A stretch of 64,000 nucleotides of DNA, from the NCBI GenBank assembly GCA_016194905.1, contig JACQAP010000008.1:62001-126000 (forward strand), in the 5' to 3' direction. The DNA comes from Betaproteobacteria bacterium (lineage in GTDB: Bacteria; Pseudomonadota; Gammaproteobacteria; Burkholderiales; JACQAP01). The notes under the pieces are model-generated. The model was not told where the DNA came from. It saw only the letters and a list, made by a program, of their open reading frames with translations, and made no database searches. The position numbers and the translations under genes were made by a program. How positions within the stretch are numbered: the first letter of the stretch is position 1; each line of letters opens with the position of its first letter. Shown in pieces: positions 38,215 to 48,540 of the stretch.

Positions 38215-39366
38215 ATGACCGCACCGAAGGCCTGGACCCTCGGCATCCTGTTTTCGCGTACCGGGCTGATGGAGATTCCGTCGACGCAGCATGTCTACGG
38301 CGCGATGCTCGCGATCGACGAGATCAACGCGGCCGGCGGGGTGCTCGGCAAGCCCCTCGAAGCGATTCACTACGATACCCGCTCGGACCTCGGCTTGTAC
38401 CGGCAATTCGCCGACCGGCTGCTCACCGAAGATGCGGTCGGCGTCATCATCGGCTGCTGCACTTCGCTGAGCCGCAAGGCGGTACTGCCTTCGATCGAGC
38501 GGCGCAATGGGCTGCTTTGGTATCCGGACCTGTATGAGGGTTTCGAGTATTCGCCGAACGTCATCTATGTCGGCGCGGCCACCAACCAGAACAGCCTGCC
38601 GCTGGCGCGCTACCTGTTTCGCCTCGGCGCACGGCGCTTTCTGCTGATCGGTTCCGACTACATCTATCCCCGTGAAGCCAATCGCGTCATGCGCGACCTG
38701 ATCGAGCGTCATGGCGGCGAGGTACTGGACGAGATTTATGTGCCGATGCAACCGCCGGAGGAAGAACTGGACCGGCTGGTGGCGCGCGTGCGGACGCTGC
38801 GGCCGGACGTCGTCTTCAGCACGCTGGTCGGACGCAACATCTGCCACTTCTGCGAGCGCTATGCGGACGCCGGTATCGATCCTGCCGATATTCCGATTGC
38901 CAGCCACAACGTGACGGAAGCGGAATTGATCGAAGTCGGCCGCGCAGAATGCGCGGGATACATCACCGCCGCGCCGTACTTCAGCAGCATCGACAGCAAG
39001 GCAAACCGCGACTTCGTTCGCGCATTCCGGCAGCGCTTCGGCGCTTCGGCGCCAATCAGCCAGTACGCGGCATCCGCCTATTCTGCGGTGCGCCTGTTCG
39101 CGGTAGCACTCGAACGCGCCGGCGAAATGGACACTCAGCGCATGATGGTGTGCGCGCGCGGCCTGGAAATGGAGGCGCCGCACGGACGCATCGTCATCGA
39201 TTCGGATAACAATCACACCTGGCTCACGCCTCGCGTCGGCGTCTGGAACGGTGTGGATGAATTCGATCTGGTCTGGGAATCGGAGCAGGCGGTGCAACCG
39301 GATCCGTGGCTTGTATCCTACGGTGGCGTCGAAGATTTGCCCGAGACCGACCAGGCTGCGGGCTGA
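38215..39366 (+). CDS. amiC: AmiC-like amide sensor and negative regulator
   Basis: This is a 383-residue protein with a type-I periplasmic-binding fold but no signal peptide, as expected for cytoplasmic AmiC. The N-terminus WTLGILFSRTGLMEIPSTQH, YLFRLGARRFLLIGSDYIYP and the later ICHFCERYADAGIDP are AmiC-like. In Pseudomonas, AmiC binds the inducing amide and otherwise holds AmiR inactive. The ATG at 38215 follows GGGGGAGATA; an upstream ATG in the same frame (38152) lies inside the sigma-54 promoter and is discarded. amiR follows 22 nt later. Because the operon ahead is an importer plus amidase and nitrilase, the ligand should be an amide or a related nitrogen compound. Confidence 0.88.
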   Translation: MTAPKAWTLGILFSRTGLMEIPSTQHVYGAMLAIDEINAAGGVLGKPLEAIHYDTRSDLGLYRQFADRLLTEDAVGVIIGCCTSLSRKAVLPSIERRNGLLWYPDLYEGFEYSPNVIYVGAATNQNSLPLARYLFRLGARRFLLIGSDYIYPREANRVMRDLIERHGGEVLDEIYVPMQPPEEELDRLVARVRTLRPDVVFSTLVGRNICHFCERYADAGIDPADIPIASHNVTEAELIEVGRAECAGYITAAPYFSSIDSKANRDFVRAFRQRFGASAPISQYAASAYSAVRLFAVALERAGEMDTQRMMVCARGLEMEAPHGRIVIDSDNNHTWLTPRVGVWNGVDEFDLVWESEQAVQPDPWLVSYGGVEDLPETDQAAG

Positions 39367-39388: not shown

Positions 39389-40048
39389 ATGTCCCTCGAT
39401 CCGATTCGTGAACTGCGCGGCACGCGCGTGTTGGTCATTCATCCAGCCGATGAGGAAATCGACGAATTGATCCGGCATTTGCGGCGCATCGGCTGCCAGA
39501 CGAGGCTCGCATGGCCGTTGCCGCCGGCTTTGCCGACGGATGTCGATGTCGTGTTCTTTTCGATCTGGCCGACCGGGTCCACGACCGTGCCGGAATCCGC
39601 CGCTGAGCCGGGACCGTCGCTGATTGCGATCGTCGACTTCGAAAATCCGACGGCACTGAGGAGCCTGCTCGACACCAATGCGCACAGCTTCGTCAGCAAA
39701 CCGATACGTCCATCCGGAATTCTTTCGAGCCTGGTTATGGCGCGTGCGCTGCACGGCTATCAGATCCGGCTGCTCAACAAAGTCGCCAAGCTCGAGGAGA
39801 CGCTGCGCAGTCGTCGCGAAATCGAGCGGGCGACGCGTATCCTGATGGAGGTAAAGGGTTCGAGCGAAGACAGCGCGTACCAGCTCATCCGCCAGCAGGC
39901 GACCGCGCAGCGTCTCGCCATGGGCGTGGTTGCGCGGTCGATCATTACCGCGCACCGGGTGTTCGACAAGAGTGTCGAAGACAACACACGCATTGCGCGC
40001 GAGACGCGCAGCAGCGTGCTGCGCTTGCCGGTTCGCAAATCGCCTTGA
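39389..40048 (+). CDS. amiR: AmiR-like ANTAR transcription antiterminator
   Basis: This is a 219-residue protein. Residues about 10-125 form a pseudo-receiver (RVLVIHPADEEIDELIRHL) that lacks a normal acidic phosphorylation pocket. A coiled coil (VAKLEETLRSRREIERAT) follows, then a C-terminal ANTAR three-helix RNA-binding domain (about 145-205; MEVKGSSEDSAYQLIRQQAT). ANTAR proteins bind a two-hairpin RNA motif and prevent intrinsic termination; such a motif follows immediately. The ATG at 39389 has AAGGAG upstream. It is co-transcribed with amiC, whose product should hold it in an inactive complex until the amide is bound. Confidence 0.9.
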   Translation: MSLDPIRELRGTRVLVIHPADEEIDELIRHLRRIGCQTRLAWPLPPALPTDVDVVFFSIWPTGSTTVPESAAEPGPSLIAIVDFENPTALRSLLDTNAHSFVSKPIRPSGILSSLVMARALHGYQIRLLNKVAKLEETLRSRREIERATRILMEVKGSSEDSAYQLIRQQATAQRLAMGVVARSIITAHRVFDKSVEDNTRIARETRSSVLRLPVRKSP

Positions 40049-40092
40049 CAGATTTGTGGGCGCCGTGAAAAACTGGTGCTGTTGGGTTGCGC

Positions 40093-40135
40093 ACGCGGCA
40101 GGGCTGCCGCGTTACATTTGAGGCTATGAAGCCTT
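40093..40135 (+). promoter_or_regulatory. ANTAR-type leader RNA motif between amiR and the importer operon
   Basis: Hairpin P1 is ACGCGGC (40093-40099), hexaloop AGGGCT (40100-40105), GCCGCGT (40106-40112), with loop position 1 A and position 4 G as in known ANTAR sites. Hairpin P2 is GAGGC (40120-40124), hexaloop TATGAA (40125-40130), GCCTT (40131-40135); its loop has G at position 4 but T at position 1. The 3' side of P2 is the start of the terminator's 5' arm, so P2 and the terminator exclude each other. This is the known antitermination architecture. Confidence 0.65.
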
Positions 40136-40172
40136 CGTTCTGACGCCGGTACGGCGGAACGAGGGCTTTTTT
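40130..40172 (+). terminator. Regulated intrinsic terminator in the amide-operon leader
   Basis: An 11-bp outer stem (40130-40140 with 40157-40167, one G-U pair) and a 5-bp inner stem (CGCCG/CGGCG) are followed by six T (40167-40172). Its 5' arm is shared with the P2 hairpin of the ANTAR motif, so it should be relieved by AmiR. Confidence 0.9.
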
Positions 40173-40424: not shown

Positions 40425-41591
40425 ATGTCCCGGAAAACCATTCAATTGTCCGTCGGCGCAGCGCTGATGGGCGCATTGCTCTCCAGCTCCGTCGCCCTGG
40501 CGGAGGACGTCATCAAGATCGGCATTCCCGTGGGCCTGAGCGGGGCCAACAGCGTGGTCGCACCCTCGGTCGTGCAGTCGGCTGAACTTGCGGCCGAGGA
40601 AATCAACGCCAAGGGTGGCATTCTGGGCAAGAAGGTCTTGCTCGAAGTGGCGGACGACGGCAGCGGCGCCGCCGGCGCGCAGAAGGCTTTCGATTCGCTG
40701 ATTTTCCAGAAGAAGGTCAATGTGCTGATCTCCATGGAAACCAGCGCGGCGCGCAACGCGGGATTGCCGATCGTCACGCGCGGCAAGACGCCGTTCATCT
40801 ATACCTCGTTCTACGAAGGCCGTTCGTGCAACAAGTATCTGTACGTCAATGCCTGGGTTCCGGACCAGCAGGTCGCGCCGATCGTCGACTTCTTCAACAA
40901 GAACTACAAGGCGAAGACCTTCTTCCTGATCGGCAGCGATTACGCGTTTGGGCGCGGCATGCTCGAGTTCACCAAGGGCTATATCGAGAAAACCGGCGGC
41001 AAAGTCCTCGGTGAGGAGTACCTGCCGATGGATGGATCGGACTGGACGCCGATCATAAGCAAACTGAAGGCCGCCAAGCCCGATGCCTTGATCACGTCGA
41101 CTGCCGGCGGCGCACCCAATGTCACGCTGACCAAGCAGCTTCGCGCTGCGGGCGTGAACATTCCCTACGGCAACCTTGCCGTGGATGAGGGCACGGCGAA
41201 AAGCATGGGCCCTGATGCGGAAGGCATTTTCATTTCCGGTTCGTACTTCACGACCATCGATTCGCCGAAGAACAAGGAATTCCTGGCAGCGATGCAGAAG
41301 AAGTTCGGCGCCGGCCTGAAGACGCCGAACGACCTGTCGGTGCCGGAGTATGAAGGCGTCTACGCCTACAAGCTGGCGGTGGAGAAGGCCGGTTCGGCCG
41401 ATGCCGACAAAGTTATCGCTGCGCTGTCCGAGGTCGCCTTCGAAGGCCCGCGCGGCGTGATCAAGATGAACAAGCAGCGCCATGCCCCGCTCACCATGTA
41501 TCTCGGACAGGTGCAGAAAGACGGTAGCGTGAAGACGCTGTCGACGTTCAAGGACGTCGATCCCGGCGCACAATGCCCCAACCTGAAGTAA
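40425..41591 (+). CDS. Substrate-binding protein of an amide/urea-type ABC importer (FmdD/UrtA-like)
   Basis: This is a 388-residue periplasmic protein. The signal peptide is MSRKTIQLSVGAALMGALLS, with cleavage near VALA-ED. A type-I PBP fold of the HAAT group follows, with IKIGIPVGLSGANSVVAPSV, GGILGKKVLLEVADDGSGAA and FLIGSDYAFGRGMLEFTKGY. It resembles FmdD and UrtA, which bind short amides or urea, but the ligand cannot be fixed. The ATG at 40425 has GGAGGTAACC upstream. It is separated from the amiR gene by the ANTAR leader and terminator and from its permease by repeat element D. Confidence 0.87.
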   Translation: MSRKTIQLSVGAALMGALLSSSVALAEDVIKIGIPVGLSGANSVVAPSVVQSAELAAEEINAKGGILGKKVLLEVADDGSGAAGAQKAFDSLIFQKKVNVLISMETSAARNAGLPIVTRGKTPFIYTSFYEGRSCNKYLYVNAWVPDQQVAPIVDFFNKNYKAKTFFLIGSDYAFGRGMLEFTKGYIEKTGGKVLGEEYLPMDGSDWTPIISKLKAAKPDALITSTAGGAPNVTLTKQLRAAGVNIPYGNLAVDEGTAKSMGPDAEGIFISGSYFTTIDSPKNKEFLAAMQKKFGAGLKTPNDLSVPEYEGVYAYKLAVEKAGSADADKVIAALSEVAFEGPRGVIKMNKQRHAPLTMYLGQVQKDGSVKTLSTFKDVDPGAQCPNLK

Positions 41592-41639
41592 TGAAGTACA
41601 GGGTCGCCCACAGGATACCGGCCTTCGGCCATAAGGGGA

Positions 41640-41747
41640 GAGGGGAGAGGGGCGAGGGAACGGCGCTTTTGCCGGCTTCCTGTGGTTTTTCGTCCTTCGG
41701 ATTCTCGGGCTTTTCCCTCGCCCCTCGTCCCTCGCCCCTCTCCCCTC
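41640..41747. repeat. Purine-rich inverted repeat (element D) inside the importer operon
   Basis: The 20-nt arms (41640-41659 and 41728-41747) are perfect reverse complements and are built of GGGGAGA/GGGCGAGG-like 7-8 nt units. The loop is 68 nt. It lies between the binding-protein stop (41591) and the permease start (41760), so the permease gene has no ordinary Shine-Dalgarno sequence. Confidence 0.9.
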
Positions 41748-41759
41748 GGCGGTAGCCGC

Positions 41760-42593
41760 ATGGCGACTCTCCTCGACATCCTCACCACCGCGGCGATCTT
41801 GTACAGCGTCGCAGCCGGACTGCTGATCGTGTTCGGCGTGATGAAGATCATCAACTTCGCCCACGGTGGCTTTCTCACCGTCGGCGGCTATTCGGCGCTG
41901 CTGATCACCAAGATGGGATTGAACCCGTGGTGGTCGGTACCCTGTGCCTTCGCCATCGGATTCGTCTGCGGCATGGTCATCGAGCGTCTGGTGATGAAGC
42001 CGCTGTATTCGCGCCCGCTCGATGCGATTCTCGCCACGTGGGGACTCGGCATCATCATCGGCCAGTTGATCACGCTGGGTGTGGGCCGGGAGGTTCAGTT
42101 CGTGCAGAGTCCGGTTACCGGAACGGTCGACCTGCTCGGCGGATCTTATTCGGAGTACCGGTTGTTGCTCGTTCTGGTCGCGATCGCCATCGCGATCGGG
42201 ATCGCTCTGCTTCTCAACGGCACCCGTCTGGGGCTGGTCACGCGTGCTGTCATCATGAACGAAAACCTGGCGCGCGGACTCGGCATCAACAGCGGATTGG
42301 TGCGGTTCATCACGTTCTCGCTCGGCGCGGGACTGGCAAGCCTCGCCGGTGCATTGATTACGCCGCTTTCGAGCGTCGATCCGAACATGGGCGTACCCTG
42401 GCTGATCAACGCATTCATGCTCGTGATGGTGTCCGGCGTGTCGCTCGTGAGCCTGGCCGTGGCCTGCCTGGTACTCGGCGGCGCGCAGGTGCTGGTCAGT
42501 TCCTGGGGTAATCCCATCCTCGGTGGGCTCACCATCGTCGTGCTCGCCGCTGTGGTGTTGCGGCTGCGGCCGCAGGGGTTCAGCCGTGGCTGA
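41760..42593 (+). CDS. ABC importer permease (LivH/UrtB-like)
   Basis: This is a 277-residue membrane permease of the HAAT/branched-chain family, with seven to eight helices. The typical KIINFAHGGFLTVGGYSALLI motif and NENLARGLGINSG-type cytoplasmic loop are present. It pairs with the LivM-like half of the next protein. The start ATG at 41760 lies 12 nt after the right arm of element D, with no clear ribosome-binding site. Translation may depend on coupling or on that structure. The last codons overlap the next start by 8 nt (42586-42593). Confidence 0.9.
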   Translation: MATLLDILTTAAILYSVAAGLLIVFGVMKIINFAHGGFLTVGGYSALLITKMGLNPWWSVPCAFAIGFVCGMVIERLVMKPLYSRPLDAILATWGLGIIIGQLITLGVGREVQFVQSPVTGTVDLLGGSYSEYRLLLVLVAIAIAIGIALLLNGTRLGLVTRAVIMNENLARGLGINSGLVRFITFSLGAGLASLAGALITPLSSVDPNMGVPWLINAFMLVMVSGVSLVSLAVACLVLGGAQVLVSSWGNPILGGLTIVVLAAVVLRLRPQGFSRG

Positions 42594-44424
42594 CGGGCAG
42601 ATCGCCGCACCGGTTGCGGGCGTCGCACCCCGCGTACTCGGCCGCGCCAGCTTGCGTACGCTGACCGTCGTCTGCGGCATCGCGCTGCTGTTAACCGCGA
42701 TCGGCCCCTACGTGCTGCCGACTTACATGGTCAACAGCCTGATCCGGGCTTTCCTGTATGCCGCAGTGGCGCTGACAGTCGATATTCTCTGGGGCTATAC
42801 CGGCATTCTGACGTTCGGGCAATCGGCGTTTTTCGGCATCGGCGCCTACGCCGCCGGACTGATTTTTACGCACGCCGGCTTCGGCACCGGCTACGCGGCG
42901 CTGGCATTGGTTACCGGCATCGCTGTTGCCATCATCGTTGCAGCGGTGGTCGGCTGGCTGGCGTTTTATCACAGCGCCTCGCCGCTCTACGGATCGGTCG
43001 TCACGCTGGTATTGCCGATCGTGGTCAGCCAGATTCTCTACTCCGGGGGTAATTTCACCGGCTCGAGCAGCGGGTTGTCCGGATTCGAAAGTTTTGACGT
43101 GTCGATCGAGGCCTGGTTCTGGATCGCCGGCAGTTTCCTCGTCGTGCTCACGGCCGGCGCGTGGCTGTTCGTGCGCAGCGACGCCGGCCGCATCCTGGTC
43201 GCGATCCGGGAGAACGAGCAGCGCTGCGAATATGTCGGCATCAACGTGTCGCGCGTGAAAATCCTGCTGCTGGTGGTATGCGCGGCGATCGCCGCGGTCG
43301 CGGGCTACATGTTCGCCGGCGTGCAAATGGTGGTTGCACCGGAATACGCCGGCTTCGTGTTCGGGACCGAATTGCTGATCTGGGTGGCGCTGGGCGGACG
43401 CGGCACGCTGATCGGTCCGGTGATCGGCACGCTGGTCCTGGACGTCAGTACCTCTTACCTGAGCGGCAACCTGCCTTTCGTCTGGAAGCTGGTCATCGGC
43501 TTTGCTTTCGTCGTCGTCATCGTCGCGTTGCCCCAAGGTTTGATGCCTTTGATCAAAGCGGCCATCCGGCGCGTGTTTGGCCGGAAAAAAATGACGGCGG
43601 CTTTCGCTCCCCGGCTGGAGCCTGCCGTCGAACAACCCTATGCGGGATTGGCAGGCGCAGGCAGCCGCGCGCTGGTGGTTCGCGAAGTGCGCAAGCAGTT
43701 CGGCAGCCTCAAGGTGCTGGAAGGCATCGAATTCGAGGCGAAGCGCAGCGAGCTGTTGAGCCTGGTCGGGCCGAACGGCGCCGGCAAGACCACGCTCATG
43801 CGTTGCATTGCCGACGGCAACGAGCGCTCCGGCGGGACGGTGCTGCTCAACGACCACGACATCCGGAAGTTGCCGCCGTACGCCTGCGTCGCTTTCGGCG
43901 TGGGGCGCAAATTTCAGACCGCCAACGTATTCGAAACGCTCACGGTTGCGGAAGCGCTGCGCATCGCGCGCACACGCCTCGCTCCGCCGTCACTGTGGAA
44001 GCGCGAAGAAACGCTGGCATTGCCTCACGCATCCATGCAGGTGGTTCGCGCAACAGGCCTCCACGAGCGACTGGGTATCGAGGCGCGCCATCTCTCCCAC
44101 GGCATGAAGCAGGCGCTGGAACTTACGATGGTGCTGGCGCTCGAGCCCAGCGTCCTTCTGCTCGATGAGCCGACCGCGGGCCTGACCAAGCCGGAGCGCA
44201 CGTTGATCGGCGGAATCCTCACCGATCTCGCGCGCAATCACCAGCTTTGCATCCTGCTGGTCGAGCACGACCTGGATTTCGTGCGCGAGATCAGCTCGCG
44301 GGTGATCGTGCTGCACCAGGGCAGGATCCTGCTGGACGGCACGGTGGCCGAGGTCGTGGAGTCGGAACTGGTGCGTACGATCTACTCCGGCGGCGGCCAC
44401 GCGGTAGAGGGAGCAGGCGCGTGA
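42586..44424 (+). CDS. Fused ABC permease and ATPase (LivM-LivG/UrtC-UrtD type)
   Basis: This is a 612-residue fusion. Residues about 1-335 are a LivM/UrtC permease (8-9 helices; WGYTGILTFGQSAFFGIGAY and IRENEQRCEYVGINVSRVK). Residues about 360-612 are a LivG/UrtD ATPase with Walker A GPNGAGKTT, an atypical signature LSHGMKQALEL, Walker B VLLLDEPTAGL and H-loop VEHDLDF. In most importers the two are separate subunits; fusion occurs in some urea/amide systems. The start is GTG 42586, overlapping the upstream permease gene by 8 nt. The stop overlaps the next start (GTGA). Confidence 0.92.
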   Translation: MADGQIAAPVAGVAPRVLGRASLRTLTVVCGIALLLTAIGPYVLPTYMVNSLIRAFLYAAVALTVDILWGYTGILTFGQSAFFGIGAYAAGLIFTHAGFGTGYAALALVTGIAVAIIVAAVVGWLAFYHSASPLYGSVVTLVLPIVVSQILYSGGNFTGSSSGLSGFESFDVSIEAWFWIAGSFLVVLTAGAWLFVRSDAGRILVAIRENEQRCEYVGINVSRVKILLLVVCAAIAAVAGYMFAGVQMVVAPEYAGFVFGTELLIWVALGGRGTLIGPVIGTLVLDVSTSYLSGNLPFVWKLVIGFAFVVVIVALPQGLMPLIKAAIRRVFGRKKMTAAFAPRLEPAVEQPYAGLAGAGSRALVVREVRKQFGSLKVLEGIEFEAKRSELLSLVGPNGAGKTTLMRCIADGNERSGGTVLLNDHDIRKLPPYACVAFGVGRKFQTANVFETLTVAEALRIARTRLAPPSLWKREETLALPHASMQVVRATGLHERLGIEARHLSHGMKQALELTMVLALEPSVLLLDEPTAGLTKPERTLIGGILTDLARNHQLCILLVEHDLDFVREISSRVIVLHQGRILLDGTVAEVVESELVRTIYSGGGHAVEGAGA

Positions 44425-45128
44425 GCGCAGCCGCGCTGGACGTGAAGGGAGTGCGCAGCGGCTACGGCGAAGCGCCGGTCGTGCGCGACGTGAGCTTCGA
44501 CGTCAGGTCGGGAGAAATCTTTGCATTGCTCGGCAAGAACGGCATGGGCAAGAGCACTCTGCTGAAAAGCGTGATGGGTTTTCTTCCGCTGCACTCCGGC
44601 AGCGTCGGCCTGTTCGGCACCGACATCACCGGCCTGCCGCCGCACAAGGTCGCGCGCCGGGACATCGCCTACACGCCTCAGGAGCAGGCGCTGTTCCAGG
44701 ATCTGACGGTGGAGGACAACCTGCGCCTCGGTATGCGCGACGACACATCGTTCGATGCCGGCCTGAAGCGCATCGGCCAGTTCTTCCCGGTGCTGCCGAC
44801 GCGGCTGAAGCAGCGCGCCGGCACGCTCTCGGGCGGCGAGCAGAAAATGCTGCTGGTGGCGCGCGCGCTGATGTCTCGGCCGAAGCTCATGCTGATCGAC
44901 GAGATTACCGAAGGTCTGCAACCGTCGGTCATCGAACGGCTGGCCGGCGTGCTGCGCGCGGAGCGCGACGAGTCGAAGGTGTCGATCCTGATCATCGAGC
45001 AGAACGTGAAGTTCGCGTTGTCGGTCGCCGACCGCTACGCGGTGCTCAAGCTCGGTGAAATCGTCGATCGCGGCGATATCGGCGGAGCCGATGTCGAGCG
45101 CCGGATCACAGACCAACTGAGCGTGTGA
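44421..45128 (+). CDS. ABC importer second ATPase (LivF/UrtE-like)
   Basis: This is a 235-residue ATPase with Walker A LLGKNGMGKSTLLK, signature LSGGEQKMLLVARAL, Walker B LMLIDEITEGL and H-loop-like IIEQNVKFAL. It completes a five-component importer with the binding protein, permease and fused permease-ATPase. The start GTG at 44421 overlaps the upstream stop. The fold fits UrtE/LivF. A purine-rich repeat region follows the stop. Confidence 0.9.
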   Translation: MSAAALDVKGVRSGYGEAPVVRDVSFDVRSGEIFALLGKNGMGKSTLLKSVMGFLPLHSGSVGLFGTDITGLPPHKVARRDIAYTPQEQALFQDLTVEDNLRLGMRDDTSFDAGLKRIGQFFPVLPTRLKQRAGTLSGGEQKMLLVARALMSRPKLMLIDEITEGLQPSVIERLAGVLRAERDESKVSILIIEQNVKFALSVADRYAVLKLGEIVDRGDIGGADVERRITDQLSV

Positions 45129-45318: not shown

Positions 45319-46047
45319 ATGACCTATTCCATCGTCGCCCATTGTCCCCGCACCGGCATGCTCGGCGTTGCGGTTGCCACGGCCGTTCCGGCCGTGGGTT
45401 CGATGTGTCCGTATGTCAAAGCCGGCGTGGGCGCCGTGTCCACCCAGTCCTGGGTCAATCCCTATCTCGCCATCGATGCGCTGCGCATGATGGAGACCGG
45501 CAAGTCGGGACCCGAAGCGCTTAATGCGGTAATGGCCGCCGATGGGGCGCGCGAGGTGCGCCAGATCGGCGTGATCGATGCGCATGGCCGCAGCGCAGCC
45601 TGGTCGGGCAGGAACTGCACGGACTGGTTCGGCCAGATCGTCGAACCGCATTTCGCGGTGCAGGGAAACATGCTGGTGTCGGCACCGACCATCGAGGAAA
45701 TGGCGAAGGCGTTCCGGGCGAGCGAGGGACTCGATCTTGCCGAGCGGCTGATGCTGGCGATGGAAGCGGGCGAGTCTGCCGGCGGCGACAAGCGCGGCCG
45801 GCAGTCGGCCGCTTTGAAGGTGCATCACACCGAAGAGTATGCGTTGCTCGACCTGCGTGTAGACGAGCATGCTTATCCGGTCGGTGAGTTGCGACGCGTA
45901 TTTACGATCGCGAAGCTGCAACTGCTGCCCTTCGTGCAAGGCATGCCCACGCGCGGCAGTCCCGGCGCGGCGGCGCCAGAGGCTGTCGTCAGGCTGCTCG
46001 GTTACCCGCCGCCGCAGCGCCCTGGCGGTGGCGGCAGCGCACCGTGA
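45319..46047 (+). CDS. DUF1028 family protein (Ntn-hydrolase-like)
   Basis: This is a 242-residue protein. The N-terminal MTYSIVAHCPRTGMLGVAVA and AVSTQSWVNPYLAIDALRMM, and the central GNMLVSAPTIEEMAKAF, are diagnostic of DUF1028, a family of predicted Ntn-type hydrolases often found beside amidases and peptide or amide importers. It may process the imported amide or its derivative. The ATG follows directly on the AGCCCCT repeats, so its initiation signal is unusual. The stop overlaps the possible GTG start of the next small gene. Confidence 0.88.
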   Translation: MTYSIVAHCPRTGMLGVAVATAVPAVGSMCPYVKAGVGAVSTQSWVNPYLAIDALRMMETGKSGPEALNAVMAADGAREVRQIGVIDAHGRSAAWSGRNCTDWFGQIVEPHFAVQGNMLVSAPTIEEMAKAFRASEGLDLAERLMLAMEAGESAGGDKRGRQSAALKVHHTEEYALLDLRVDEHAYPVGELRRVFTIAKLQLLPFVQGMPTRGSPGAAAPEAVVRLLGYPPPQRPGGGGSAP

Positions 46048-46067
46048 ATGACACCAAGGACACTGAG

Positions 46068-46259
46068 ATGAACGACCCCGACCCGTACAAAGATGTGCTT
46101 GGCCTCGACCTGTCACCCGAACGCCTGCAGGAAGTGGTCGCGGCGTATCGGGATATCCTCGCCGAGGTGAACAAGTTGCGAACGCTTGATCTGACCGACA
46201 CGCATCCGGCGATCCTGTTCGAACCGACCGCGCCCTATCGCGCAGGCGGCAAGCGATGA
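46068..46259 (+). CDS. Small GatC/AtzG-like amidase subunit
   Basis: This encodes 63 residues (71 if the GTG at 46044 is used). The C-terminal part (YRDILAEVNKLRTLDLTDTH, then PAILFEP) resembles the tail of GatC/AtzG, which pairs with amidase-signature enzymes and has a conserved aspartate/proline-rich end. Its stop overlaps the amidase start, as expected for such a partner. The ATG at 46068 has AAGGA upstream. A complex with the downstream amidase is inferred, not shown. Confidence 0.7.
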   Translation: MNDPDPYKDVLGLDLSPERLQEVVAAYRDILAEVNKLRTLDLTDTHPAILFEPTAPYRAGGKR

Positions 46260-47650
46260 CGCGCGAACTGTGGACACAGCCGATCGAGACGCTGGCGCCG
46301 GCCATCCGCGCCGGCAAAGTCTCGCCGGTGGCCCTGACCGAAGCCTGCCTCGACCGTATCGAAAAAATAGACGGCAAGCTCGACAGTTTCATTCACGTCT
46401 CGAAGCATGCGCTGGACGCCGCCCACGCGGCCGAGCGCGAGATCAAGACCGGAAAATGGCGCGGCCCGCTGCACGGCATACCGGTTGGCGTGAAGGACAA
46501 CTACGTTACGCGGGACATGCCGACCACCGCGGGCAGCGTGGCGCCCGGTTTGTCATTTCCTCTGCGTGACTCGGCTGCGGTGTCACGGTTGCGCGCAGCC
46601 GGCGCCATTCTGATCGGCAAGACGCGCACCCATGAATTCGCGTGGGGCAATGTCACGCCGCCGGTTTGCAATCCCTGGGATCTGACGCGGGTACCGTCCG
46701 GATCGAGCGGAGGTTCGGGCGCGGCGGTGGCCGCCGGACTGTGTGCAGCGGCTTTGGGCTCGGATACCGGCGGATCGATCCGCATGCCGGCCGCTGCCTG
46801 CGGAACGGTTGGTCTGAAAGCGACCTTCGGGCGCGTGAGCCGCGATGGCATTGTGCCGCACAGCTGGTCGCTCGATCATGCCGGGCCGCTGACTCGCACC
46901 GTGGCAGACGCCGCGCTGATGATGCAGGTGCTGGCTGGCTACGATGCGGCCGACCCTGCCTGCCAGGCGCAACCGGTGCCCGATTACTCGAAGGCGCTCA
47001 ACAGACCGGTCAGGGGATTGAAGATCGGTGTCTGCCGCAATCATTTTTTCGACAATCTGCAGGAAGACGTGGAGCACGCTGTCGAGAACGCGATCGCCGA
47101 TCTGGCCAGAGCCGGTGCACAGGTGCGCGAGCTGAAAATTCCCCTGCTGGAGTACGGGCTGGGCGCGATATTCGCCATCGAGTTGTCGAGTTCCACGGCC
47201 TACCATGATGCATCGCTGCGCGCGGGACGCGTGCCGCACTACCAGCCCGATGTGCGCATGCTGGTGGAAATGGGGCGGCTCGTCACGGGGCCGGATTATC
47301 TGAAGGCCGAACAGTATCGCAGCGCGCTGATGGACGAATACCGCAAGGTGTTCGAGAGCGTCGACGTCGTGATCGGTCCGACCACGCCGATCACGGCATG
47401 GAAGCGGGGCGAATGGACGGTGCAGGTCGCGGGGAGGCCGGAGAGCGTGCTGGCGGCGTCCTGGCGATTCACTTATCCGTACAACCTGACCGGATTGCCG
47501 GCGATCTCGGTGCCCTGCGGTTTCGACCGTGACGGCCTGCCGATCGGCCTGCAGATCGCGGGACGACCCTTTGACGAGACTACCGTACTGCGCGTTGCGC
47601 ATGCATATGAACGCGATCACGACTGGAAAGATCGCCGGCCGCAGCTTTAA
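46256..47650 (+). CDS. Amidase-signature enzyme
   Basis: This is a 464-residue amidase of the signature family with a complete Ser-cisSer-Lys triad: Lys80 (GIPVGVKDNY), Ser150 (VPSGSSGGSGAAVAAG) and Ser174 (GSDTGGSIRMPA). Such enzymes hydrolyse a carboxamide, a ureido amide or an allophanate-type bond; the substrate cannot be read from sequence. The close pairing with the AtzG-like small gene recalls AtzE/AtzG and GatA/GatC. It belongs to the AmiC/AmiR-controlled operon and should release ammonia or a carboxylate from the imported compound. A nitrilase gene starts 17 nt after its stop. Confidence 0.9.
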   Translation: MTRELWTQPIETLAPAIRAGKVSPVALTEACLDRIEKIDGKLDSFIHVSKHALDAAHAAEREIKTGKWRGPLHGIPVGVKDNYVTRDMPTTAGSVAPGLSFPLRDSAAVSRLRAAGAILIGKTRTHEFAWGNVTPPVCNPWDLTRVPSGSSGGSGAAVAAGLCAAALGSDTGGSIRMPAAACGTVGLKATFGRVSRDGIVPHSWSLDHAGPLTRTVADAALMMQVLAGYDAADPACQAQPVPDYSKALNRPVRGLKIGVCRNHFFDNLQEDVEHAVENAIADLARAGAQVRELKIPLLEYGLGAIFAIELSSSTAYHDASLRAGRVPHYQPDVRMLVEMGRLVTGPDYLKAEQYRSALMDEYRKVFESVDVVIGPTTPITAWKRGEWTVQVAGRPESVLAASWRFTYPYNLTGLPAISVPCGFDRDGLPIGLQIAGRPFDETTVLRVAHAYERDHDWKDRRPQL

Positions 47651-47667
47651 TCGGGAGAGAGACGACA

Positions 47668-48540
47668 ATGAATCCACAACAGGAAAGCCGGATGCGCGTG
47701 GCCTGTCTGCAGATGGAGCCCAGGATCAGGCAGGTACGCGCCAATGTCGCGCGCAGTCTGGAGTTGATCGCGCAGGCGGCAAAGGCCGGGGCGCAGCTGG
47801 TCGTGCTGCCGGAGCTGTGCAATACCGGTTACGTTTTTGAGACGCGCGAGGAAGCCCTCACCTTGTCTGAGACGGTGCCGAACGGGCCGACCTGCGATGC
47901 GTGGATAGCGGCAGCCCGCAAGCATTCGATGTTCATCGTCGCCGGCATTACCGAACGCGAAGGAGGGGATCTGTACAACTCCGCGGTCCTGATCGGATCG
48001 GAAGGCCATATCGGCACCTACCGAAAAAACCATTTGTGGGGTGCCGAGAACACGATCTTCGAACCCGGTAATCTGGGCGTCCCGGTCTTCGACATCGGCG
48101 CCGGCCGTATAGCCTGCGCAATCTGCTACGACATCTGGTTTCCCGAGATTTTCCGTCTCGCGGCCTTGCAGGGCGCCGATATGCTATGCGTGGCCACCAA
48201 CTGGGTGCCGATGCCGGCGCAGCCCGGCAATCTGCCGATGATGGCCAACATCCTGGCCATGGGCGGCGCGCACGCCAACTCGATGTTCGTGGCGGCCGCC
48301 GATCGCATCGGCGTCGAGCGCGGGCAGCCCTTCCTCGGCAACAGCGTGATCGTGAGTCATACCGGCTGGCCGCTTGCGGGTCCCGCAAGTCTGGATCGGG
48401 AAGAAATGCTCATAGCCGATATCGACCTCGCGGATGCGCGGCGCAATCGTAACCTGACCGATTTCAACGAACGGCTGCGGGATCGTCGTACGGATATGTA
48501 CGGGGAAATGCTCGGCTCCACGGCAATCCCCGGCTACTGA
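47668..48540 (+). CDS. Carbon-nitrogen hydrolase (nitrilase superfamily)
   Basis: This is a 290-residue nitrilase-superfamily hydrolase with catalytic Glu49 (VVLPELCNTGY), Lys120 (YRKNHLWGAE) and Cys153 (CAICYDIWFPE). The fold is of the amidase/carbamoylase branches. It may hydrolyse an N-carbamoyl or amide intermediate. It starts 17 nt after the amidase and is likely the last gene of the amide operon. The ATG at 47668 has GGGAGAGAG upstream. Confidence 0.9.
   Translation: MNPQQESRMRVACLQMEPRIRQVRANVARSLELIAQAAKAGAQLVVLPELCNTGYVFETREEALTLSETVPNGPTCDAWIAAARKHSMFIVAGITEREGGDLYNSAVLIGSEGHIGTYRKNHLWGAENTIFEPGNLGVPVFDIGAGRIACAICYDIWFPEIFRLAALQGADMLCVATNWVPMPAQPGNLPMMANILAMGGAHANSMFVAAADRIGVERGQPFLGNSVIVSHTGWPLAGPASLDREEMLIADIDLADARRNRNLTDFNERLRDRRTDMYGEMLGSTAIPGY

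Follow-up and report, generated by a model that had tools for sequence, protein, structure and literature searches.

Between an amiC-amiR gene pair and an ABC-transporter/amidase operon, the stretch of DNA analyzed in this study (64,000 nucleotides, hereafter the window) has two hairpins, P1 and P2, with an overlapping intrinsic terminator at 40093-40172 (Table 1). An initial annotation of the same DNA reported a dual-hairpin leader at this position, with the gene for an ANTAR protein immediately upstream and the operon to be controlled directly downstream, and each of these observations holds. The product of amiR has Pfam scores above the cut-off for both domains (AmiR_N, 124 bits; ANTAR, 51 bits), an AmiC-like gene comes before amiR, and the genes that follow the leader are of the urea/amide transporter and hydrolase types. 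The AmiR_N pseudo-receiver, the ANTAR domain, and the AmiC partner gene identify the protein as an AmiR-type regulator, and an amiC-type gene adjoins amiR in nearly all of the AmiR loci fetched. In NCBIfam, most of the best relatives of the transporter genes are urea transporter proteins (UrtA-E), all with scores below the curated cut-offs. The gap between the binding-protein and permease genes (41618-41760) has a long G/C-rich inverted repeat, GGGGAGAGGGG...CCCCTCTCCCC, and a similar element is also found 3' of a paralogous amiR (L032).

Table 1. Features of the amiC-amiR locus, the leader, and the operon that follows, in window coordinates.
Feature	Position	Strand	Remarks
amiC-like ligand sensor	38215..39366	+	Peripla_BP_5/6; relative of UrtA/AmiC
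amiR	39389..40048	+	AmiR_N and ANTAR domains
Putative -35, TTGACA	40045..40050	+	Overlaps amiR stop codon; from comparison of relatives
Putative weak -10, AAAAAC	40068..40073	+	17-nt spacer; inferred
P1 hairpin	40093..40112	+	ACGCGGC[AGGGCT]GCCGCGT; perfect 7-bp stem
Linker, ACAT	40114..40117	+	Bases 1-3 (ACA) conserved in at least 90% across the Thr172 leader class
P2 hairpin (antiterminator)	40120..40135	+	40121-40134 is AGGC[TATGAA]GCCT; core GGC[UAUGAA]GCC
Intrinsic terminator	40128..40172	+	Core arms 40131-40140 / 40157-40166; mutually exclusive with P2
Substrate-binding protein, urea/amide-type ABC transporter	40425..41591	+	First gene of the putatively regulated operon
Permease (UrtB-like)	41760..42593	+	Profile matches
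Permease-ATPase fusion (UrtC + UrtD-like)	42589..44424	+	One 633-aa frame (42523-44424); fused in relatives too
ATPase (UrtE-like)	44427..45128	+	Profile matches
DUF1028 protein, amidase-signature hydrolase, carbon-nitrogen hydrolase (nitrilase superfamily)	45319..48540	+	Likely rest of operon

A TTGAC-like -35 element is found at about the same place in most of the relatives inspected, and the leader therefore probably has a promoter of its own. The -10 element is weak, and a generic sigma-70 scan showed no promoter before the leader. If the putative -35 and -10 elements are used, transcription would start at about 40080. A sigma-54 element 5' of P1 was inspected by eye and ruled out by its wrong spacing.

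P1 has the perfect stem and the AGGGCT loop (40100-40105) claimed for it, with both A1 and G4 present. P2 is lengthened by an extra wobble pair (G40120-T40135), and its loop has T1 and G4. The arms of the terminator, GCCTTCGTTC (40131-40140) and GAACGAGGGC (40157-40166), form 10 bp including one G-U pair; A40130-U40167 brings the stem to 11 bp, the inner stem is CGCCG/CGGCG, and the T-run (U-tract) extends from 40167 to 40172. The 3' side of P2 had been said to be shared with the 5' arm of the terminator, and bases 40131-40135 are in fact common to both. The leader is more stable than shuffled sequences, with a folding z-score of -3.9 (-4.8 when only the terminator part is folded) and none of 200 shuffles equally stable. 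The minimum-energy fold contains both P1 and the terminator but not P2, as expected for a default "off" state; when the 3' arm of the terminator is removed, P1 and P2 are predicted to fold together.

The antiterminator recognized by ANTAR proteins has been described as a dual hairpin with A1/G4 loops (PMC3369931), and SELEX with NasR likewise yielded A1, G4, and a C:G closing pair (PMC7496416). Compared with the dual-hairpin definition of Ramesh 2012, the window leader has the short hairpins and short linker, A1 and G4 in P1, G4 in P2, and the overlap with the terminator, but P2 has U1 in place of A1. As for the six-base loops of that definition, also claimed in the initial annotation, six bases lie between the C:G pairs, but bases 1 and 6 are complementary in both loops, and the P1 A1-U6 and P2 U1-A6 pairs are predicted to close them further to tetraloops. 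The T at P2 loop position 1 had been noted as a departure from the usual A. The base is indeed not A; instead of fitting the A1/G4 rule poorly, however, it is an invariant mark of a separate class of leaders, being present in all 20 that were aligned.

The protein departs from the known pattern as well. For residue numbering, the AmiR of the window was aligned to EutV and to Pseudomonas aeruginosa AmiR, and EutV positions are used here. In EutV, G4 of the loop stacks on Tyr164, and Met172 is described as essential, with the M172A substitution abolishing RNA binding (PMC8934654). The window AmiR retains Arg142, Glu160, Tyr164, and Arg175, and so has a G4 pocket of the EutV type (Arg142, Glu160, Tyr164), but has Thr at the positions of both Met172 and Lys149, and thus lacks the Met plug and the Lys149 contact to G4. 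Since P2 does not have A1 and the AmiR does not have Met172, the leader is placed in a variant subclass and not among plain ANTAR members.

AmiR homologues were gathered through protein and Pfam-family searches of the order, the class, the phylum, and three families, and their neighbourhoods were fetched. Among 88 distinct AmiR-like proteins, residue 172 is Met in 62, Thr in 24, Arg in one, and Gln in one, and Lys149 is replaced by Thr, Val, Ile, or Met in all 24 of the Thr172 proteins. The other ANTAR domains of these relatives keep Met at 172 in all but three, which have Arg. The leader class is present in 21 further operons with a Thr172-type AmiR from Alpha- and Betaproteobacteria. Wherever the operon was found, the Thr172 proteins all come from loci with this leader class and every such locus carries the leader: 22, including the window, have P2 loops of the form U1-NN-G4-N-A6, and one additional locus has a P2 loop of 7 nt that still has U first and A last. 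The AmiRs closest to that of the window come from loci with the same leader downstream of amiR. In Burkholderiaceae-like genomes (the family of G157), nitrilase-fmdD follows the leader at the front of the operon and amiC-amiR is at the far end, so that leader and protein go together without adjacency.

In the tree of these proteins, the Thr172 sequences are in one starred group of 34 rows that includes nine Met172 proteins and one Gln172 protein. A single Thr172 clade is not rejected (p-AU 0.096), and the tree test could not show repeated independent origin of Thr172. The tree is therefore consistent with one or two origins of Thr172, and the co-occurrence of loop type and Thr172 then represents few evolutionary events. 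Strict exclusivity of P2 U1-A6 for Thr172 is ruled out by L206 / L162 (G1160), where a Met172 AmiR is accompanied by a leader with P1 GAC[AATGTG]GTC and P2 GGC[TATGTA]GCC; U1-A6 alone (UAUGUA) does not need Thr172, and this mixed type may be an intermediate. At the Gln172 AmiR loci (L191/L209), no clear dual hairpin was found. The genome of the window encodes both a Thr172 AmiR and a Met172 AmiR. Another genome (G1255) has six AmiR-like paralogues, one with Thr and one with Arg at 172, which makes it a natural system for testing specificity.

All 20 distinct aligned Thr172 leaders have a P2 loop of the form U-N-N-G-N-A, with U1, G4, and A6 invariant, and bases 1 and 6 are therefore U-A throughout. 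The P1 loop is A-N-N-R-N-U in 18 of the 20, with position 4 being G in 17 leaders and A in three; the 1:6 pair is A-U in those 18, U-A once (L139), and C-G once (L208). In these leaders 99.5% of cells are paired, and both 1:6 pairs are 100% standard. Double changes occur in the P1 stem and the P1 1:6 pair, and double-changed cells number 8, compared with 2.0 (sd 1.1) in shuffles. For the P1 1:6 pair, compensation amounts to just two events. The initial annotation had proposed a comparison of relatives for compensatory changes in both hairpins. P1 does covary, while the stem and 1:6 pair of P2 never vary in the class, so there is no covariation support for P2, and the comparison neither supports nor contradicts it. 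Some leaders have further hairpins. In the alphaproteobacterial L139, L140, L141, L142, L143, L144, and L207, a third hairpin (P0) abuts the 5' side of P1, for example GAGC[AGGTTT]GCTC or GGGC[AGTGTT]GCCC, with loop bases 1 and 6 again complementary; L208 has AAGCT[GAGATC]AGCTT just 5' of P1.

Leaders of Met172 AmiRs were found with a pattern that left loop positions 1 and 6 free but demanded G4 in P2, so their G4 count is biased. In 13 aligned Met172 leaders, bases 1 and 6 can pair in two P1 loops (15%) and one P2 loop (8%), and A...U P1 loops occur in three of the 15 Met172 leaders listed. The predicted probability of 1:6 pairing is 0.76-1.0 in the Thr172 leaders tried and 0.00 in most Met172 loops, and folding gives tetraloops for the Thr172 class and open hexaloops for most Met172 leaders. 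In the Met172 leaders L107, L113, L114, and L223, A replaces G at P2 loop position 4 (AAAAGA, CAAAAA), and the G4 rule is not universal among Met172 AmiR leaders either.

One explanation of these features is that the leader is an ordinary one, with loops that open on binding, 1:6 complementarity that only stabilizes the free hairpins, and Thr172 as neutral drift or compensated elsewhere, the system otherwise working as in EutV and NasR. The retention of G4 and of the G4-pocket residues is consistent with this, as are the few ordinary P1 loops with A...U and the one ordinary P2 loop with U...A. A covariance model of Met172-AmiR leaders only also gives its top score in the window to this leader (26 bits, E 0.002; the following match has 17.3), which places the leader among ANTAR-type leaders in a broad sense. 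An ordinary leader is nonetheless unlikely, since complementarity at 1:6 is present in both loops in 20 of 20 class leaders and is compensated in P1 (U-A, C-G), against the low proportions found elsewhere, and since M172A abolishes the binding of EutV (PMC8934654), loss of the Met should not be neutral.

The class can also be recognized from the RNA. A covariance model made from 16 leaders of other genera, none of them from the window or its near relatives, gives the window leader a score of 53 bits (E 8.4e-11 for the 64 kb), with a runner-up at 24 bits. The Rfam scan of the window had no ANTAR match, only chance miRNA-type matches on the G-rich inverted repeat. A match at 41149-41185 on the minus strand (23-24 bits), antisense in the binding-protein gene, is taken as chance, as is the next model match in the genome of the window (25.9 bits); pattern and model searches of that genome for other targets of the class gave this site only. 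RNA-only scans matched eight of 299 genomes in the phylum sample and eight of 110 in the family of G157, all with a Thr172 AmiR; the leaders matched were in the training set, except for a second site in G157. This second leader (L249:4350-4430; contig C152:9350-9392) has P1 AGGGCT, P2 TACGTA, and a terminator, and is followed directly by a urease operon (ureAB fusion, ureC, ureG). The AmiR of G157 probably runs a two-operon urea regulon, and the urease-operon leader in this relative suggests urea as the signal. A two-hairpin terminator answering to some different factor (translation, a ligand, or an RNA-binding protein that is not AmiR), or a constitutive terminator between amiR and the next operon, is very improbable: inter-operon terminators are commonplace, but P1, the linker, and P2 are conserved across Alpha- and Betaproteobacteria and track the Thr172 AmiR also in operons with amiR at the opposite end, the RNA-only matches are solely in genomes with such an AmiR, and the leader has a promoter-like element 5' and an operon 3' of it.

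With fair confidence, the leader belongs to a variant subclass of transcription antitermination leaders and is controlled by the adjacent AmiR in response to a ligand, and the initial interpretation as an ANTAR antitermination leader is partly supported. In the proposed mechanism, a short RNA would be made from a weak promoter where amiR ends; by default it would fold into P1 and the terminator, with transcription stopping at about 40172. Ligand, probably urea or a short amide, would act through the AmiC-like protein to release AmiR, and the AmiR dimer would grip first P1 and then P2 via G4 of the loops, using the retained equivalents of Tyr164, Glu160, and Arg142. Because P2 is built from bases of the terminator 5' arm, the terminator could not then form, and the transporter/amidase operon would be transcribed. 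In the subclass, the 1:6 pair would close the loops to AU- or CG-closed tetraloops with G as the third base (in P1, G or A). A small Thr in the AmiR takes the place of the Met plug that fills the open hexaloop in EutV; Thr172 may be an adaptation to the closed loops. More tentatively, and with somewhat less than even confidence, a second mode of ANTAR recognition can be proposed, in which Thr172 AmiRs bind pair-closed tetraloops instead of open hexaloops, with the flipped-out G as the one feature kept; cross-talk between two AmiR-leader pairs of the same genome would thereby be avoided.

A subtype with closable loops and a Thr172 AmiR is apparently undescribed; no description of the leader variant was found in the open-access papers searched. 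The class looks like a natural double change, in protein and in RNA, of the Met172/A1 rule proposed for EutV, where Met172 was suggested as an essential plug that sets the size of the loop and as a possible guard against tetraloops, and A1 as a possible guard against pairing across the loop (PMC8934654). Such a pairing of protein and RNA changes makes the Met172-plug/A1 proposal directly testable. Searches based on A1/G4 miss or under-score leaders of the Thr172 class, and the Thr172 AmiR with its leader is possibly an orthogonal antiterminator pair.

Three known or related systems are comparable. P. aeruginosa AmiC-AmiR with amiE has a similar AmiR_N-ANTAR protein with an AmiC partner, and its amide genes are preceded by a leader with a dual hairpin and a terminator (PMC3369931; PDB 1qo0). 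However, P. aeruginosa AmiR has Met at the plug position where the window AmiR has Thr, the amiE leader has A1/G4 in both loops by published report where P2 of the window has U1-A6, and the window leader precedes an ABC-transporter operon. EutV with eut from Enterococcus and NasR with nasF share with the window the two C:G-closed hairpins, the loop G4, the overlap of P2 and terminator, and the G4-pocket residues (PMC8934654, PMC7496416). These systems have open A1..G4 hexaloops and the Met172 plug, while the loops of the window are predicted to be closed and its AmiR has Thr; A1 is thought to prevent cross-loop pairing in the EutV and NasR systems, and the opposite is seen in the window class. 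The third, also from the genome of the window (G000 contig C34, L130), is the leader of a paralogous AmiR, where amiC-amiR is by an ABC transporter of the same superfamily and the leader likewise has a dual hairpin and terminator. In this paralogue, P1 is GAC[AAGGAC]GTC and P2 is GGC[ATAGAA]GCC, with bases 1 and 6 non-complementary (an open hexaloop), and its AmiR has Met172 and Lys149, whereas the window AmiR has Thr at both.
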